In this document: positions 20,239-32,957 of the stretch, in pieces | Layout of the letters: each line of letters starts with the position of its first letter | How positions within the stretch are numbered: the first letter of the stretch is position 1 | From: Porphyra umbilicalis | Taxonomy: Eukaryota > Rhodophyta > Bangiophyceae > Bangiales > Bangiaceae | Reading direction: 5' to 3' | Length of the DNA stretch: 64,000 nucleotides | NCBI GenBank assembly: GCA_002049455.2 | Contig: KV918767.1 | Coordinates: forward strand, 180,256 to 244,255 | Notes under the pieces: generated by a model | What the model saw: the letters and a program-made list of their open reading frames with translations, nothing else | Database searches by the model: none | What the model was told of the DNA's origin: nothing | Position numbers and translations under genes: made by a program

Positions 20239-21679
20239 ATGAGCGCCCTCTGTCGCGCGGGGAGGTCCACCATCGGCCAGTGGCGGTCCTTGCTCGCCGC
20301 CGCCGCCCCGTCCACCACCCCCCGGGCGGCGGCCTGCCCCGCCGCCGCCGCCTTGCCCCGCGTCGCCGCCGGCGGCTGGCGGTCCGCGAGTGACGCCGCC
20401 GCACCGTCCACAGCGGCTGCCTCTCCCCCCCCCCCCCCCCCCCCTCCCCCTCCCCCCCCTCTGTACGGACCGACGGTGGCGATCACGGGGGCGGCGGCGC
20501 CGCAGGGGCGCCCCCGGCGCCCCCCCCCCGCCGCCCGCCGCCGCTGCCGCCGACGTGGAGGCTGCCGCCGACATTGGGTCTCTCCTCGCCCTCGCCACCT
20601 GCCTGCGCTCTGCCGTCGCAGCAGCGGCGGCGCGCGGCGCCTTTACGCCCGACCTCCTCGTCGACGTGGAGGCCGACGCGGACGCGGCGACGGCGCTCGC
20701 CGCCCGCGCGCTCGCCGCACTCGACCCCCCCGTGTCCCTCGACTCGGTCCTTGCCGCGTGGGGGGGTGGGGGCCTCGAAGGCAATGGCGACGGCGGCGAC
20801 GGGGGCGTCGGCACGGGCGGCGACGGCACGCGGCCGCCGCTGCCGCCGCTGCCGCCGTCGGCGCTGCCCTACACCGACCTCCTCCGCGCGTACACGCTGC
20901 GGGATTCCATGGAAGACGCGCTCGTGCAGATGAATGTGGCGCCGCCGACGGCGTCGGCGGTGGCGGGCTCCACCCGCCCCTTTGGCCGCCCGACGCCCGC
21001 GGAGCGCGTCGTCGCGGGGCTCGCCGCCATGGACGCGGCGGCGGCCGGCGGTGGGCGGGCGGCCACGGGCGGCGGTCGCGGCGGCGGCGGCGGCGGCAGC
21101 GGCGATGGACAGACCGTGGCCGCCGACGCTGTCGGCGTGGCCATCCAGCGGGCGGCGCTCGAGGTGGCCACCTCCCTCCCCGCCCTCCTCCGCGGCTTTG
21201 ACACGGCGCTCCTCCACACGTGCCGCGTGCACAAGGTCACCCGCGGCGGCACCGCCTTTTCCCTCAAGGCGCTCGTCGGCGTCGGCAACCGCGCCGGCGC
21301 GGTCGGCGTTGGGGAGGGCAAAGCCGACACGGCCGCCGCCGCCGTTGAGCGCGCCTGCCGCGCGGCGGTGCGGGACTTGCTGCCGCTACCGCGGGTGCGG
21401 GGGGGCACCCTCCCCCACGCCTCCACCGGCGTGTACGTGCGCACCGAGGTGCGGGTGTGGCCGGCGCCGCGGGGCTCGGGCGTCGCCGCCAACAATGTGT
21501 TTGCGGCGGTGCTCGCGCTGGGGGGGGTGACCGACGTGGGCGCCAAGGTGCTCCACGGGCGGGGGGTGGCCAACTCGTGCAAGGCGCTGATGCGGGCGCT
21601 GGGGGGGGTGCGGTCCGCAGAGGAGGTCGCCCGCACCCGGGGGGTCGGCGTCGCCGAAGTGGGGGGGGGGCGCCGTTGA
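20239..21679 (+). CDS. MRPS5: Mitochondrial-type ribosomal protein uS5
   Basis: The C-terminal ~150 residues are a bacterial-type uS5: VHKVTRGGTAFSLKALVGVG, then GVGEGKADTAAAAVERACR, TEVRVWPAPRGSGVAANN and VGAKVLHGRGVANSCKALMRAL. uS5 lies in the small ribosomal subunit near the decoding site. The start MSALCRAGRSTIGQWRSLL at 20239 is Arg/Ser/Ala-rich with no acids, as expected of a mitochondrial presequence; a plastid destination is less likely but not excluded. Between them lies a non-conserved Ala-rich domain. The presequence and the body are in different frames, separated by C runs at about 20425-20444 and 20519-20529, so one base-count error or variation there is likely. The body alone (frame open from 20390 to 21679) is secure. 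Confidence 0.8.
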
Positions 21680-22483: not shown

Positions 22484-22624
22484 ATGATTGATGATGCGCA
22501 GCTGGCGGTGCTGGTAACGTGGGGCGGCTACACGATTGTCGGCCTCGTGCTCGTCTACCACTGGGTTGTGGCGCCGACCGATGGGGCGATGCCCCGCCCT
22601 TCCATTCACCGGAAGAGCGCCTAG
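22484..22624 (+). CDS. OST4: Oligosaccharyltransferase subunit OST4
   Basis: A 46-residue mini-protein beginning MIDDAQLAVLVTWGGYTIVG with a single hydrophobic segment (about residues 7-27) ending LVLVYHWV. OST4 proteins of yeast and animals are 36-40 residues, start MI.D.QL and have the same ..VIYH end to the membrane helix, so the match is strong for such a short gene. OST4 stabilises the catalytic STT3 subunit with its partner in the ER membrane complex that N-glycosylates proteins. The tail here is slightly longer and ends in basic residues (RPSIHRKSA). The ATG is in a good ACCATG context. Confidence 0.85.
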   Translation: MIDDAQLAVLVTWGGYTIVGLVLVYHWVVAPTDGAMPRPSIHRKSA

Positions 22625-23910: not shown

Positions 23911-24237
23911 TTAGTCAAACAGCCCAAAGCCCATGTCGTCATCTTCCTCCTCCTCCTCTTCCTCCTCCTCCTTCTTCTCCTCCTCGGCCGGGGCGTCACC
24001 ACCGGCAGCAGCGCCGCCCGCCGCCGCGCCGCCGCCCGACGGGACTGCAGAAAACTTGGTCATGCCCTCGGCAATGACCTCGTTGATGTCCTTCCCGGAG
24101 AGCTCCGACATGAGCTTTTCGAGGATGGAGTCGTCGACCTCGGCGCCGACCGCGGAGAGGATGCCCTTCACATCGTCCGCAGATGGCGAGGCGTTGCCGC
24201 CCATCACTGCCAGCATGTAGGCGCTCAGGTACTTCAT
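23911..24237 (-). CDS. RPLP2: 60S acidic ribosomal protein P2
   Basis: A 108-residue protein starting [20 protein letters not shown], followed by [20 protein letters not shown], the standard P2 N-terminal dimerisation domain. A Gly/Ala hinge leads to an acidic Glu/Lys block and the invariant C-terminus [10 protein letters not shown], which recruits elongation factors to the ribosomal stalk. Length is normal for the family (about 110). The ATG at 24237 gives the family start; a few extra in-frame codons lie upstream. An untranslated first exon cannot be excluded. Confidence 0.96.
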
Positions 24238-25239: not shown

Positions 25240-26678
25240 CTACAGGCGGCCAACAACGGCAGCTGACCTCGGCGCCGCCCCCGTTGTGCGCCCCTGCGCA
25301 CGGTACGCTTCCGTGGTGTCCACCGACTGGGCGGCGTCCGCCTCGGCCACGTCCGTCTCTGCGCGCGCCGTCACAGCCAGTGGAGCCACCGCCGCCGTGG
25401 CAGCTGCCTCGGCACGCGGCGACCAGGCAGCACGGCCGTCGAGCGTCACATTTTCGGGCGTACCTGGCCCACCGACGTACAGCACACACGGTAGCGCAAG
25501 AGCGGTGGCGACGGAGACGCCAAACGGGCTGAGCTCATCGTCAACCGACACGTTGCGCCCGCCGTGGGCCCCATTGTACTCGGCCGCGCCGGCAAACGCT
25601 TGGCGGCTTACCCACAGCCGATCGAGGTACGCGTGGTGCAGATAAAACGCCGGGTCGTTTGGGCTCGACGGCGCGTCGGCCATGTCGCCACCGTCGCCGC
25701 CAATGGCGAGGCGCTGGAGCTGTTGGCGGAGCTCGAGGTCGGCGGAAAAGTCGGCAAACGTCGCGCTCTCTGTAATGAGCGCGATAAGCTCATCGGTCGA
25801 CGGCCACGGCTCCCTGGCGCCCATGCTGCCCGCCTCCCCAGACGTGAAGCCGCGGCTGACGCAGTGGGGGTTGGGCAGGTCCGACTCGATGCCCTCAAAG
25901 GGGCCGTCAGGGATGCACCCGCCGGGGGTGGCGCCGCCAAGGAGGTCTGTGCCCCACACCTGCGAGGTGGGCGGTGACGCCGCGTCGAGAGACCAGTCCC
26001 CTGTGCAGCGAAAACGCCAGTCTCGTGTCGCGCGTCGATGCGACGCCAGGAAACACCAAGGGGGAAAAGGAGACGAGCAACGGTGGAAAAGAGGTCAGCT
26101 CCGTGCCCAGTACACGTGGGTCCCAAACGCGCGTGGGTGCCCCACCGCAATCACACAGCGCACGCCGGGTAGCTTGCTCTCGCGAGGCTCTTGCTTGCCT
26201 CTCCCCCCGAACCAACAAAATGCTAGCCAACCCCCAACGTACACCATGGCAGCGCGACGGTCGGGTCGATTGTCCGCAGCGCGCCCTCCAACTCGACCAA
26301 GAACAGGCGGTGCCAGGGAAGGAACTGGGCGCCTCCAAGCGCAGCTTGCAAGTGCGCGATGTATTCAGCCACGAAAAGCTGGTACACGTCGCTGTCAATC
26401 AGGGCCCGCATGGCGGTCGTAAAGCGCGTCCGACCGGCGGCGGACAGCGACCGCACCTCGACGCGCGTGCGGTTATTGTCGGGCGTGCACCCACGCACAC
26501 CGTCGCCAAACGAATACGCCGGCGGAGTTGCTTGACGGAACACCTCAGCCAGCAGCGGGTAGGAGGTAGGCGCGCTCGGCGCCGACGCGATGGGTGCCGC
26601 CGAGAGTATCGCCGCGGTGGAGATGACGGTGACGACCGCCAAGCACGCGGCGGCCACCACACGACGAATGAGGGCCAT
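25240..26678 (-). CDS. Tyrosinase-family protein with degenerate copper sites (tyrosinase 1)
   Basis: Two exons, 26678-26243 and 26000-25240, giving 398 residues. The donor is GTACGT and the acceptor GCACAG; the splice rebuilds Trp in LPWWDW, the site used in tyrosinase 2. Residues 1-27 (MALIRRVVAAACLAVVTVIS) form a signal peptide, so the protein is probably secreted or sent to the endomembranes. Tyrosinase landmarks kept: QFLPWHRLFLVELE with His123, VWGTDLLGG, PHCVSRGFTSG and SPNDPAFYLHHAYLDRLW with His267/His268. Compared with tyrosinase 2, the second CuA His is Leu (AALGGAQF against AAHFGAQF), the first is Tyr with a stray His three residues on, and the two early CuB His are Gln and Arg. 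Normal di-copper chemistry is therefore unlikely; it may be a pseudoenzyme. It is divergent to tyrosinase 2. Confidence 0.85.
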
Positions 26679-27402
26679 GATCGGTGGATACAGCGGGCTG
26701 CACGACGGACAGGCGGGCGCCGCGGTCGCCACAAGCGGTCGGGGGGGGGGTGGCGCACGTCGTGGTTCCGTCCCTGTCGGGTGAGCGTGGTGGGCAGAAA
26801 CACTCGCGCGGAGGGTCGGAGGGCGGGCGGCGTGGCTGGGGTGGGTGCGCTCCGCCCCCGGACGCGGCGCGTTGGTGGCCGCTTAAACGTCGATCTGGCG
26901 ACACTCAACCCTGCCAACCGCGCCCCCAGTCCGCGTCCCCTCTCGGCATCGATCCTCGAGCGGCGCGCTCACTCCTAACCTTCTACAGCGACGCCACGAG
27001 GCTCTGGTGAGATCTCCCGCGCCGGCGCTCCTCACAACCTGTGCCTCGCTTCTGTGAGACGCACCTGAGGAAAGGAATACAGTGTACTCGCTTGGACCAC
27101 ACACTGATTCCACTTGCAGAAATTGGGGGGCTCCTTGCTCGGGGGGCGGCAGGAGGCCTCTGTCCCAGGCCCGTGTACGCGCCAGCCTGGATTGCCAGGT
27201 GGCAAGGGGCTGGAGCGGTCGCCTGTCCAAGCCCGAACAACTTTGGAAGTGCTGCGCAAGCAAAGGCCGTGCCCGGCCGCAAACCAACGTTGAACAGAGC
27301 CCCCGGGGTGGAGCCTCTGGCATCGAGTGAGGTGGCGGCGGCGGGCAACAGGGTCCGAAGCGGTAGCCAGGGCAGGGTCGGTCGCCGTATCACGGTCCGA
27401 AG
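26679..27402. promoter_or_regulatory. Upstream region of tyrosinase 1
   Basis: About 720 bases between the tyrosinase 1 start codon and the hAT-like element. It should hold the promoter of the leftward gene. No defined box was recognised; frames here are non-coding in appearance. Confidence 0.3.
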
Positions 27403-28538
27403 TAGGGTTGCCCAACTGGTTTATCGTAATTGGTTAAAACTGGTTTACATTGGGTAAAAATCGGACATCGCTTGCAAACTAGTTTCGGATGCAAAATATT
27501 GGTTAAACTGGTTGTTTTTTAAATACGGAACAGTTGCGGTCACGTGACCGGAATTGTCCCAGTTCTTTGGCGTTAAGTGCGTGACGAGTCCCAACTTGAT
27601 GACGCGTGCACGACCAGATCCGACGACTCGTGTCTTCGTCTCTCACACCAGCCCCGTCGCCGGCGCTTCCCGTACTGCGAGCCCACCATGGCTCCCGCAC
27701 ACAAGTCGGGCAACCACACCCCACGCGCCCGCACAGGAAAAGGACCGCCACGCACGCATCACGCCGCCGTGCGGGAAGAGTGAAGGTGCATGTACCTAGC
27801 AGCCTCGCGTAGATCTGAGAAAGAAAAGAAACAAGGAGGACCAATGCGCATGCCAAGAACACATCATGCACACAGAAGCAAAAGAGAAGGGAGCGCCGCG
27901 CAGAGGAGACAGATGCTCGTGTCAGACGCGCTGCACGCAGACAGCATCACATGTACTGGCAGCTCGAGCGACGTCCACATATCACCTACAAACGTATCAC
28001 CCACAAACACACGCGAGCACAATTCCATGTATCATACCATGCGGCTGGACGTGATGATGAGGGATGATGCCACAACCCTATGCGGTGCAGTAGACGGATG
28101 CCTACAACAAGTCAAAGACCAGCGTGGGTACAGCACATGGCACCAATGACCAACCGACGACAGAGCGTTGGGCGGGGGCGCGAGGACGGAGGTAGACTTG
28201 CAACGGGCTCGTTAGGCGTGGCACCGAGAGCAACAGAGACAACGGAACAGGATAGGGTGGGGGGGGGGACGAGTGTGGCGCTTGGGTCGGCGTGGCCTGG
28301 GAGAGTGGATTGCCCATGCCCGGGATGGGCCAACACGGCTGAAATTGCCGTGCGGACTGTCCGTGCACCTGTCACCTCTTGGGTGGCTGCGACCCACTCG
28401 CTGCGGAGCCACAGACACCCAGTCTCATTTGTGGCTGGTGCTCGCCCTTGTCCAACTAACTAGTTTAAAAACTGGTTATTGGCTACCGAACACATCGGAT
28501 GAACTGGTTCGGCCGCGCGAACCAATTGGGCAACCCTA
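27403..28538. mobile_element. Non-autonomous hAT-like DNA transposon, 1136 bp
   Basis: The left end TAGGGTTGCCCAACTGGTTT (27403) is inverted at the right end as AACCAATTGGGCAACCCTA (28538), differing by one base over 19. Flanks are GTCCGAAG (27395-27402) and GTTCGAAG (28539-28546), an 8-base duplication with one difference, so the insertion is not very recent. Subterminal ACTGGTT motifs repeat near both ends, as expected of transposase binding sites in hAT elements. No transposase is encoded. It lies between the two divergent tyrosinase genes. Confidence 0.85.
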
Positions 28539-28546
28539 GTTCGAAG

Positions 28547-30333
28547 TGGACCGGGGTGACGAGGCGCAAAGACAACCATGAGGATCCGCGGCACCATAGA
28601 AGATACTCTTGGATACCTTTCCAGTACAAGGGGCGGCAACAGCGTTGAGGGAAACCAGTCCACGGTCGGGCCGCGCGGGTACACCTGGAGCTGGAGGGCC
28701 GCAGACCTGTCCGACAGCACACAGCATTGGGAGATGCTCGGTGCCAGTGGGTTGCGGTCCGTCAAATCGACGGAGCGCAACGCAGTCGGGCCGCTGGTAC
28801 ACTCGGCACCCAGACGGTGCGCGTCTGCGCGCATTGGGCACGGATCTGGCGTCGAGACGCGGTCGAGAAGCTGTTGCTGTCTGCGTGCTGTACTCCTGTG
28901 GGCAGAGATCACGACAACCTGCTGGCCAAGATTGACATTGGTTTCGATTCCGGGTGCTGTGCGAAATCTTGCCGGCTGCGCGGATGTACTGCTTCCGCAG
29001 TTCCAGCTCAGCTCCATTTTTCCCCATTCCTCACAAATCTCGTCCTCCGCATGCGCGTCTGAGCGCCGCGCCGTACAGTTGTACGAGCCCCCTTCCGGGG
29101 GGGCCCGCCAAGATCAGGAAACAGGGCTCCACCCCATTGGCGCTGCTGGCGGCCAGCGTGGCCGCCCGGCGTCCAAGCCACCCGCCCCACTTGGTGCGAC
29201 CTTGACACGGCGTCTGCGGCGCACACTCCTCCTTTGGCCGCCCGGCAGGGTCGGGTCGCCGCCCGCCCCAGCGGGACGCGCCGCGTTGGCAGTGTCACAC
29301 GCCGCCCACGGGGCGCGCTCCGTGCCGAGGGGGAGATCCCCCTCAAGCGCTGCGTTGCAGGTGGCGTGCCCCCCAGCCCGGACCCCCTCGTGTCGGCCAC
29401 CGTGTGCCAAGGCGGGCGCACTATCTGCCGCTCGCCGTCTGACAGACCCACGCACAGCGGTGCGCAGATGCCCTTGCTTCCCCCCCCGGTTCGCCCCCCA
29501 TCCCTTGATCGACTTGAAGGACACGCCGTGGCCAGGGTTCCAACCAACAGCCAGCGGACCTTGGCACCAGTACCTTTCAAAGCAGCCGTCGCAAAAGGGT
29601 CGCCGCTCGCCGCGGCCGGCCCCAACGGGCGCCTGCTGCCGTGCCTCGCTTGCGTGCAGCAGCGCAGTGGATCGCCGCGGCTGCTACCCCGAACCGCTGC
29701 TGCGCCATCCCCGAGGCACTGTCTTTTGACCGGCGGGGCGCGCAGGACACCCCCTCCCGAGGGTCCGCCCCCCCCTGACACCAAACAAGCGTAGCGGCCC
29801 GCCGACGGCGCCGCCGCCGCCGCTGTCAGGGCCACGGCTGCGTCGGCGCGCCGGTCCCCCGCGTGGCCACCGCGGCGGGCCCCTGCCGCGTTTGTCATGC
29901 GCCCGCGGGGCGGCGCCCCCGGGCGCCAATGGAGAGATTGGCGCCGCTGCCGAGCCCGCGCGACGAGGTCGCTGCTGTCGCACCCGGCACCACGTCAGCG
30001 GGCGGATGGAAGGGCGCGGCTCCCTGCAACGTGCTAGCGGTGGGGGGGGGGGGGGGCTCTGAGCGGCTCCCGCGCGCAGGGGGGGGGGGGCGGACCCCCC
30101 GCGCACGCCCGCGGGGGCGTTGCGTGCCCTTCGCACGCGGGCGTCTGGGGTGCGATCGCCGCCCGGCGAGGGCGGCCGCAACCGTGCGTTCGACGGTTTA
30201 AGAGGCAGCGGCGGTCTGGTGGTGGGCTCGGACGCTTGTGTGGCCACTTGCATCGCCACCCCCACCGGCATTGGCTCTTCCATCCGCCAGGGGACGGCGA
30301 GCATCCTCACCCCCGCACGCCTCCCCCCTCAGC
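28547..30333. other. No gene recognised; upstream of tyrosinase 2
   Basis: A 1.8 kb stretch with several overlapping open frames of biased composition and G runs near 30040 and 30080. A plus-strand frame from 28578 to 29729 was considered but shows no domain. The promoter of tyrosinase 2 must lie in the right part. Confidence 0.3.
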
Positions 30334-32957
30334 ATGGCGCCCCTTCGACGGGTGCGCGCGAGCCTCCTGGCCGTCACCGCCGTTGCCGCCACGCTCCTGG
30401 CGGCGGCGCCCGCCCCGTCGACAGCCACCGTCTCTGTGGCGCCGCCCGAGGTGTCGCCCGGCGCCGAGGCCGTCGCCGCCACCCCAGAGCCGTCCCCCCT
30501 GCCACACGTGCGCCGCACCGGGGCGCCGCCGCTGGGCGCGTCACCCGGCGCCGAGGCCGATGCCGCCCGTGTGGGGCGGAGCTTGGAGGCAAATGACATG
30601 CTGTCGCTCGCCGTGTCGCCCGGCGCCGAAGCCGTCCCCGCGCCGGTCGTGCAAAGCGCTGAGCGCACCGACACGGCGCCGCCCGACGTGTCGCCCGGCG
30701 TGGAGGCGGTCGCGCCGACGCCCGGGGCGTCGCCCCGGCCCGACGTGCGCCGCGTCGAGGCGCCCCCGCCCGCCGCGTCGGCCGGCGTCGAGGCCGTGGC
30801 GGGCGCCCCCCCCTGCCGGCGGTCGTCCGCGCGCGCGCCGAGGCGGCCGCCGGCGGCTGCTGGCACCGCGGCGGCGGCGCCGACCGGGTGCGCTGCTGCC
30901 TGCGCCCGCGACCGTGTGGCCGCCGCACGTGCACGTGGCGCCGCGCCCCCGACGGCCGCTGGGTGCGCCGCTGCGGGCGCCCCACCTGCCCCCACCGCGT
31001 GTGCGTCAAGGTGCGCGCCTTGGACCAAGACGCCACCGAGCGGCAGGGTGACGACGACGGCGACGGCGACGGCGACGGCGGCGGCGGCGGCGGCGGCAGC
31101 CGCGGCGGCGACGGCGACGATCGCCGCACGGAGCGGTGCTGGTGGACGGGGCACGGGTGGGGCGACGTGCACCGCCGCCGCCGCTGCTGCGTGCTGACGT
31201 TTCCCTGCCCGGGCGGCGGCGGCGGTGGTGGGGGGGGGGGGGTGACTGCCGCTGGCGCCGCGAGTGGGTCGGCTTCCGCTACGAGTGGCGGCGGGTGTGC
31301 CGCCCCCACCGGCCGCGCCGGTGCCGCAAAACGGTGTGCGGGCCGCCGGGCGGCGGGGATCCGACCGTCGCGCCGACGCTGCCGCCGACGGTCCCGCCGA
31401 CACTGCCGCCGACGGTCGCGCCGACGTTGCCACCGCCGACGGTGCTGCCGACGCTGCCACCGACGCTGCCGCCGACGGTGGCGCCGACGTTGCCACCGCC
31501 GACGGTGCTGCCGACGCTGCCGCCGACACTACCGCCGACGGTGGCGCCGACGCTGCCGCCTCCGACGGTGCTGCCGACGCTGCCGCCGACGGCGCCGCCA
31601 ACGTCGACTCCGACGGCCCCCCCCACGCCCCCCCCAACGCCGTGGACGTTTGGTGACGGCCTCCGGTCGTGCACCGCCGCCAACGTGCGCACGCGGGTGG
31701 AGGTGCGGTCGCTGTCGGCGGCGGCGCGGTCCCGCTTCACAACCGCCTTCCGCACGCTCATCGACCGCGGGGAGTACAACCCGTTTGTGCCCTTCCACTC
31801 GGGCAACACGGACGCGGCGCACTTTGGGGCGCAGTTCCTCCCGTGGCACCGGCTGTACATCCTCGAGTTGGAGGACGCGCTGCGGGCCATCGACCCGCTG
31901 GTGGTGCTGCCGTACTGTACGTTGGGGGGGTGGGGTTGGGGACGATTGGGCGGGCACGCCGGGGTGCCGGGGCATGGACAAAAAGCGGGGGACCGGGAAG
32001 AGCATGGCGATGGACGGGGGCGCGATTCTAACCACTCTGTTTGCTCTGCGCTTGCGCTCCAGGCTCTGCTCTGTTTCTTTTCCTCACGCAGGGGACTGGT
32101 CCGTGGATGCGCTCTCGCCGGCAACGTCGCCCGTGTGGGGCACGGACCTCCTGGGCGGCTCCCTGCCCGGCCAGTGCATCCCTAACGGCCCCTTTCAAAA
32201 CATGCAAGCGACCAACCCGTCGCCCCACTGCGTGACGCGCGGCTTCACGTCGGGCCCCGGGGGCAGCATGGCCGGCATGACCTTTGAGGAGGCGGCCGTC
32301 CTCGCCGGCGTTGTCGAAGCGGGCACCCCCTACTCGACCTTTGCCGACGCGATTGAGCTCGCGCACAACCGCCCGCACGAGGCCATCGGCGCCGCGCAGC
32401 TGCTCGATGCGCAGGGCCAGCCAACGTCCCCGCCCGGCGACATGTGGTCCCTCGGGGTGAGCCCCAACGACCCCGCCTTTTTCCTCCACCACGCCTTTGT
32501 CGACAAGCTGTGGGCGGACCGCCAGGCGCGCGCCGACCCGACCGAGTACAATGGGCAGCACGGGGGGGTGGCCGCCTCTGCGTCGGCGGTGCTCGCCCCG
32601 TTTGGCGCCCCCGTGTCGACCGCCTTTCAACTCCCGTGCGTGCGCTACGGGGGGGGCCCCGTCGGCGCCCGCCGCCGCCGCCGCCCCCGGGTGCCGCGGC
32701 GGGACGGGCGCCCCGTCCCCCGCGCCGACGCGGCGCGGGCAGTGGCGGGCGCGCGGGCGGGCGCCGACGCTGCCGAGGCGGCGTTTGCGCGCCGCTCGGG
32801 CGCCTCTGAGGCGCAGATTGCGCGGGGGCGCGCCGCGCTGACGGCGGCGGCGACAGACGCGTTTTTGGCGGGCACGCTCGTGGCCGAGGTGGCGCTGCCG
32901 CCGGCAGAGGTGGGTGGGCCGGTGGAGGAGGCGGCGGTGGCGGTGGGGGGGGGGTAG
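30334..32957 (+). CDS. Secreted tyrosinase with Cys-rich N-terminal region (tyrosinase 2)
   Basis: Exon 1 runs from the ATG at 30334 to 31916 and exon 2 from 32092 to 32957; the splice (GTACGT donor, CACGCAG acceptor) gives LPYWDWSVDALSP. The start MAPLRRVRASLLAVTAVAAT is a signal peptide. Next come imperfect SPGAEAV repeats, then a Cys/Arg/Trp-rich region (about 30850-31360) with roughly 15-20 Cys, then a Thr/Pro linker (31366-31640) and the tyrosinase domain. All six copper His are present: CuA codons 31796, 31820 and 31847 (FH, AH, PWH), CuB 32364 and 32376 (AHNRPHEAIG) and the HH pair at 32487. It should oxidise phenols or o-diphenols outside the cytosol. Frame changes fall at a C run (about 30805) and a G run (about 31230), so exon 1 is approximate there. 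Confidence 0.82.
31366..31640 (+). repeat. Thr/Pro-rich coding minisatellite in tyrosinase 2
   Basis: Tandem units such as PTVAPTLPPTVPPTLPP and PTVLPTLPPTLPPTVAP are encoded by a repeated GCCGACGCTGCCGCC pattern, with a larger unit of about 63 bases recurring three times. In the protein this is an extended, probably O-glycosylated linker between the Cys-rich region and the tyrosinase domain. Copy number is likely to vary between individuals. Confidence 0.75.

Follow-up and report, generated by a model that had tools for sequence, protein, structure and literature searches.

Type-3 copper proteins are textbook metalloenzymes, and pseudoenzymes are an already known kind of protein. A tyrosinase-like gene of Porphyra umbilicalis, contained in a stretch of 64,000 nucleotides that was analysed as a whole (the window), brings the two together and raises the question whether a gene of this family whose copper ligands are largely gone is on its way to decay or is kept as a protein, and in which role.

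Structure and Product of the Focal Gene

The focal gene encodes 398 amino acids in two exons on the minus strand. Its copper ligands are named A1-A3 for CuA and B1-B3 for CuB, the columns being set by 11 six-His paralogues and 80 bacterial relatives.

26243..26678, minus strand: exon 1, likely signal peptide and CuA half (Y106 at A1, L114 at A2, H123 at A3)
26001..26242, minus strand: intron, GT-AG, 242 bases, at W/DW
25240..26000, minus strand: exon 2 including the stop, CuB half (Q238 at B1, R242 at B2, H267-H268, with H268 = B3) and C-terminal tail

The original prediction, made from the sequence letters, was that the frame is intact over both exons and that the intron site is kept. Both points were borne out: the 398 codons contain no stop, the intron is bounded by GT-AG, and the W/DW site lies at the same codon position as in the neighbouring paralogue C7b. 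The site is also common to the paralogues C53, C347, C162, and C24. An assembly or frame artefact at A1-A2 and B1-B2 was rejected, as the other frames contain neither HxxxH nor AHGG there, and a homopolymer-caused artefact was rejected as well, as the focal exons contain no G/C run of 7 or more and no A/T run of 6 or more. The base composition of the window ranged from 66 to 76% GC in 8 kb steps; an excerpt of PMC7423979 gives 64-68% GC for Bangiales/Bangiophyceae vs 37-57% for other red algae, which makes an origin in the Bangiales likely.

The focal protein matched Pfam family PF00264 with an E-value of 2.2e-27 and 97.3 bits (whole-protein score; curated cut-off 22.6). This was its sole family match at the reported thresholds; E-values up to 1 added only AAA_19 at 0.17, which is a chance match. 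Among solved structures, its matches were mollusc hemocyanins and bacterial tyrosinases, and four mature cysteines are retained. The N-terminus is hydrophobic over residues 7-21, where the Kyte-Doolittle mean over 15 residues peaks at 2.45; by this measure of hydropathy it fits a signal peptide. The architecture consists of the likely signal peptide and the tyrosinase domain only, with neither a cysteine-rich module nor a stalk.

Four of the Six Copper Ligands Are Lost

Two of the six copper ligands, H123 (A3) and H268 (B3), are kept in the focal protein, and four are lost. The residues at the ligand columns are encoded as follows:

26361..26363, minus strand: Tyr106, codon TAC, A1 column
26337..26339, minus strand: Leu114, codon CTT, A2 column
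26310..26312, minus strand: His123, codon CAC, A3 ligand kept (PWHR)
25723..25725, minus strand: Gln238, codon CAA, B1 column
25711..25713, minus strand: Arg242, codon CGC, B2 column
25633..25635, minus strand: His268, codon CAC, B3 ligand kept, second H of HH

These columns agree with what had been claimed from the letters, namely that most copper histidines are lost (four of six columns are non-His), that the second CuA His is replaced by Leu (L114), that both early CuB His are replaced by Gln and Arg (Q238 and R242), and that the PWH and HH motifs remain (H123 and H268). The first CuA His had been described as displaced; the A1 column holds Y106, and the displaced H109 falls in neither ligand column. 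It is located 14 residues before A3, whereas A1 is located 17 and A2 9 residues before it, which places H109 outside both columns. H109 was accordingly rejected as A1 or A2, and CuB would in either case still hold one His.

An alignment-free count over the protein found six histidines (109, 123, 191, 267, 268, and 291). None was present between residues 191 and 267 when the whole protein was scanned without alignment, so a usual CuB site is impossible under any alignment, and B1 and B2 have no nearby stand-in. We also checked for other histidines at the copper sites, and none falls there. In the printed hemocyanin alignments of the solved-structure matches, Q238 and R242 stand opposite the two early CuB histidines. 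The bacterial control had six His in 80/80 aligned loci (best 80 of 552 relatives); as it was found by patterns containing PWHR and ranked by likeness to six-His sequences, A3 was partly preselected, and the control therefore places the ligand columns but does not say how rare loss is.

Type-3 copper motifs are given as H1(n)H2(8)H3 for CuA and H1(3)H2(n)H3 for CuB, with a conserved Phe four residues before each H3 and an Asp four after the CuB H3 (excerpt of PMC3658974). The six-His paralogues match both motifs as stated there, while the focal protein matches neither the CuA motif (Y106, L114, H123) nor the CuB motif (Q238, R242, H268). The flanking Phe and Asp residues are present in FLPWH, FYLHH, and HAYLD. 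With the alpha-subclass of type-3 copper proteins (PF00264 tyrosinases, catechol oxidases, and mollusc hemocyanins) the focal protein shares the Pfam domain and the conserved flanks described in that excerpt, and its hydrophobic N-terminus would fit the signal peptide of this secreted subclass; it differs in having the copper motifs broken to Y, L, H and Q, R, H. Judged by sequence, it is a member of PF00264 that fails the ligand test defining a type-3 copper protein.

The Tyrosinase Family in the Genome

Profile and sequence searches of 665 contigs (83.8 Mb) were performed with PF00264, the focal protein, and the domain of paralogue C396. All three queries returned the same 18 tyrosinase places, so that at least 18 are present and all counts are lower bounds. 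A complete domain was found in 14 of the 18. The domain of C654 was interrupted by the contig end, and C575 (L009; a shifted near-copy of C93), C339 (L015), and C110 (L046) were broken by stops or shifts, C339 and C110 being relics with stops; these three show the appearance of decay in this genome.

All six ligands were present in 11 of the 14 complete paralogues, and three were His-poor: the focal gene, C3, and C396. C3 (L023) has lost five of the six ligands (to L, F, A, N, and Q) and keeps A3, and C396 (L022) has lost four (to L, S, F, and Q) and keeps A2 and A3. Both genes are intact and sit on contigs other than that of the focal gene, and the ligand-site codons of the His-poor copies are plain substitutions. 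The focal gene is therefore not the single case that had been assumed. Beyond the first observation, there are three such genes and probably two losses.

C3 and C396 have no intron at W/DW and carry an N-terminal cysteine-rich module that is absent from the focal gene. This CW...CC module precedes the tyrosinase domain in C93, C3, and C396, and the stalk of C3 contains 36 KAPT units; from their sequence, module and stalk look like wall or matrix protein architecture. Over the family, the W/DW intron was present in six of the 14 complete paralogues and missing in eight. The split with the best support has both states on each of its sides (C53 with, C471 and C10 without the intron), which indicates repeated intron loss or gene conversion. 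The CuB HH motif was altered in two six-His paralogues, to AVHA with one residue inserted in C35 (L018) and to SLHA in C347 (L012); in both, the B3 His is kept and the His preceding it is lost.

The tyrosinase contig C44 also bears a phycobilisome-linker gene, which counts against contamination as the source of the tyrosinases. Linker matches numbered 12 in the genome, four on contig C665 and eight on other contigs. Phycobilisome proteins were found mostly on C665, which looks like the plastid, and one C665 protein aligned end to end with phycoerythrin beta chains; these findings identify a red alga. Two scans of viral contigs found no relatives, and a genome-contig scan returned, among the matches listed (best 80 of 552), bacterial tyrosinases only. 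In Pyropia, tyrosinase genes are reported to be expanded and transcribed in a stage-specific manner (excerpt of PMC7423979).

The Neighbouring Tyrosinase and the Rest of the Window

The closest paralogue of the focal gene, identical in 148 of 268 columns, is its neighbour C7b, which is located about 5 kb away in divergent orientation.

31640..32957, plus strand: C7b, six-His tyrosinase domain and tail (core exons 31640-31916 and 32092-32957; intron 31917-32091)

The tyrosinase core of C7b is uninterrupted. Its upstream part (30202-31916) uses three reading frames and contains a start that resembles a signal peptide (from about 30334), a CW...CC module rich in cysteine, and a PT-rich stalk, followed by the domain. 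Stretches of 8 C (30806) and 13 G (31230) lie close to the frame changes, which points to assembly errors or a damaged N-terminus.

Between both tyrosinase genes lies a transposon-like element (27403-28538), which we take to be hAT-like. Its terminal inverted repeats begin TAGGGTTGCCCAA, and its 24-base arms (27398-27421 and 28520-28543, part of the flank included) are 92% complementary. The element is flanked by near-identical 8-base duplications (GTCCGAAG / GTTCGAAG) and is likely a non-autonomous hAT-like transposon. Three further features were observed in the window:

20243-21679, plus strand: long ORF with ribosomal protein S5 domains (PF00333, PF03719), probably organellar
22484-22624, plus strand: 46-residue single-helix ORF, Pfam Ost4 (a small oligosaccharyltransferase subunit), 25.8 bits and thus just above the cut-off of 25
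23911-24237, minus strand: 60S acidic ribosomal protein (PF00428)

Conservation and Selection

Thirty-four columns never varied in the 11 six-His copies, six of them ligands and 28 others. The non-ligand columns were kept in 28/28 cases in the focal protein, 27/28 in C3, and 26/28 in C396, and the comparison of lost ligands with the other invariant columns gave Fisher p-values of 0.00032, 0.00013, and 0.0043, respectively; ligand loss is targeted rather than random. In a leave-one-out over the six-His copies, the omitted copy kept between 28/28 and 28/35 columns, so the focal gene is no less conservative than the copies with six His. Out of 73 non-ligand columns common to at least 9 of the 11 six-His copies, the focal protein keeps 67 and the 11 copies keep 55-73, and its six departures are all more than four columns away from any ligand. 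In contrast, the surroundings of B1 and B2 were strongly changed, with consensus matches of 6/16 in the focal protein and 5/18 in both C3 and C396; the six-His copies matched at 8-16 of 19.

A codon model was fitted to 264 codon columns, excluding the ligand columns, and gave a one-ratio omega of 0.130; omega values are rough here because synonymous sites are near saturation (branch of 4.6 in neutral units; GC3 0.79-0.93 across the family). On the focal branch, which covers the time before and after ligand loss, its own omega was 0.138 vs 0.129 for the rest, with no difference between them (2dlnL 0.03). Omega = 1 was rejected on this branch (2dlnL 24.7, p = 6.6e-7), and 40 simulations with omega = 1 yielded a 2dlnL of at most 3.33. 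A neutral tail on the focal branch never improved the fit; a tail of 0.2 cost 1.4 and one of 0.3 cost 2.5 log units, so that a neutral tail of up to roughly 0.2-0.3 substitutions per codon is compatible with the fit.

For the tip branches of C3 and C396, omega was 0.074 and omega = 1 was rejected (2dlnL 148). The simplest account of the A1, B1, B2, and B3 losses of these two copies is inheritance from a shared ancestor, and the tips then postdate the losses. For C3, omega (0.040) was significantly below that of the rest (2dlnL 13.1). Among the six-His copies, the tips of C162 and C24 taken singly did not reject omega = 1 (2dlnL 0.0 and 0.1) because these branches are very short; taken together, they gave an omega of 0.31 and rejected omega = 1 (2dlnL 14.3).

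The codon analysis supports purifying selection on the focal gene. Relaxed selection on this copy, which would have spoken against the original prediction, was tested within the genome and not detected. The earlier claim that the gene is kept as a protein rather than decaying is thereby supported within one genome, both by the 28/28 columns and by the rejection of omega = 1.

Number of Copper Losses

The family tree was built without the ligand columns. C3 and C396 were sisters (support 100/98), and the focal gene was grouped with C7b (79/85). The best tree needs two changes, and a single change suffices on none of the 200 bootstrap trees (0%); taken by themselves, the branches with full support are compatible with fewer than two changes. 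A single origin of the three His-poor copies is less likely, as the best tree joining them was 22.5 log units worse (AU p = 0.017) and appeared in 0/200 bootstrap trees. No residue among the aligned columns was shared only by the focal protein, C3, and C396, which gives no sign of a convergent new site. The old W/DW intron is retained in the focal gene and missing from C3 and C396. Since the focal gene and C3/C396 fall in separate clades, ligand loss most likely, though not provably, happened twice in this genome.

A Probable Secreted Pseudoenzyme and Its Alternatives

The type-3 dicopper site of the focal protein, as far as sequence can tell, is dismantled, and the rest of the domain is conserved and selected. 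The gene is an enzyme homologue with catalytic residues lost and under purifying selection, as expected of a pseudoenzyme, and has neither the broken frame nor the neutral evolution of a pseudogene. We consider it fairly probable that its product is a secreted tyrosinase-fold pseudoenzyme that is kept as a binding or scaffold protein. The gene would have been duplicated from a six-His ancestor, and after duplication the oxygen and phenol oxidation chemistry would have been lost. The folded domain may have been kept for its binding partners in the wall or in the space outside the cell, with phenolics, wall polymers, or other tyrosinases as candidates. We infer the non-catalytic state, and with it the loss of phenol oxidation, from the missing ligands; secretion and an extracellular binding or scaffold role are likewise inferred. 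That C3 and C396 reached the same state suggests repeated use of a copper-free fold in the alga.

Against a pseudoenzyme counts that two of the six ligands and the HH motif remain. Human tyrosinase with a single CuA His mutated still has about half its hydroxylase activity and oxidises dopa normally, so some activity may persist when only CuA is lost, whereas CuB loss lowers both activities (excerpt of PMC7144311), and CuB is lost in the focal protein too. CuA His mutants of a plant polyphenol oxidase hold one copper, and all CuA-site mutants are without diphenolase activity (excerpt of PMC4364613). The four ligand losses over both sites are far beyond these human and plant mutant cases.

In the main rival reading, the protein would serve an active tyrosinase, such as the neighbour, as a dedicated partner or regulator without catalysis of its own, acting through heteromers, chaperone titration, or substrate masking; a storage role, leftover metal chemistry, and recent inactivation are less probable. 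The kept fold and the six-His C7b, the closest paralogue, divergent and only about 5 kb away, would fit such a role. However, C3 and C396 on other contigs show that adjacency is not general, and the branch joining the focal gene to C7b is supported by only 79/85; we regard a partner role as unlikely.

The gene might also have been inactivated recently and be on its way to a pseudogene, its intact frame being a leftover. Broken family members (C575, C339, and C110) do exist in the genome, the focal GC3 of 0.81 is among the lowest in the family, and the short neutral tail described above is compatible with the fit. Nevertheless, the likelihood was best with zero neutral tail, and evenly spread neutral change would not hit 4/6 ligands and 0/28 other invariant columns (Fisher p = 0.00032). 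Stops arise from about 2.5% of single changes (89/3582); a neutral tail of that length would give about 2-3 by our estimate, and none was seen. Recent inactivation is therefore improbable.

Slightly less probable than recent inactivation is another enzyme or metal protein with a single metal at H123, H268, or H109 plus other residues. A3 and B3 are kept, H109 is near the CuA region, and the plant CuA His mutants kept one copper; yet the same source describes all CuA-site mutants of the plant enzyme as lacking diphenolase activity (excerpt of PMC4364613). Moreover, the CuB helix of the focal protein has Q and R with no His nearby, and since only A3 is left in C3 and only A2 and A3 in C396, the copies have no residual site in common.

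Storage proteins are aromatic-rich in some cases. A nutrient-storage protein, made by the same evolutionary move as the hemocyanin-derived arthropod hexamerins and cryptocyanins (excerpt of PMC6850205), is highly improbable, as the focal core contains 9.7% F+Y+W vs 9.8-13.3% and 5.2% N+Q vs 2.5-8.8% in the 11 six-His copies.

Comparison with Known Systems

Arthropod hexamerins come closest as a parallel to the proposed secreted pseudoenzyme with its binding or scaffold role, though they are not of the same family or composition. In hexamerins and cryptocyanins the six copper histidines are mutated, and these storage proteins are under strong purifying selection (excerpt of PMC6850205); like the focal protein, they have, on that account, a type-3 copper ancestor, lost copper histidines, and a fold kept by selection. 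They belong to a different sequence family, whereas the focal protein is a red algal PF00264 member without storage-like composition. Vertebrate tyrosinase-related proteins are likewise paralogues that share the tyrosinase fold and have altered metal chemistry. In tyrosinase-related protein 2 the metal is zinc, bound by the conserved histidines (excerpt of PMC3658974); the focal protein has lost four of these. Within the genome, C3 and C396 resemble the focal gene in being intact, in having lost five and four of the six ligands, respectively, and in keeping most of the remaining invariant columns; they differ in their separate clade (100/98), the missing shared-site intron, and the N-terminal cysteine-rich module. 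Our search of the open-access literature found nothing on copper-ligand loss in red algal tyrosinases and nothing on tyrosinase pseudoenzymes as such.

Meaning for the Tyrosinase Family

A broader reading, which we put forward tentatively and with about as much doubt as confidence, or slightly more, is that in this red algal lineage the tyrosinase fold lost its copper on at least two occasions and was recruited for extracellular copper-free scaffold or binding proteins, beside expanded active tyrosinases and in parallel to the hexamerins. The well-known case of copper loss with retention of the protein is the arthropod hemocyanin line; the genes described here would, if this is true, be a second one, belonging to PF00264 and to a red alga, with two separate paralogue lineages in a single genome. 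The four-helix dicopper fold would then be useful without copper. Intact paralogues with and without copper ligands in one genome also offer a target for work at the bench. Tyrosinase genes of Pyropia are counted as antioxidant or tyrosine-metabolism enzymes (excerpt of PMC7423979); counts of this kind may include probable non-oxidisers, which here make up three of 14 complete domains.
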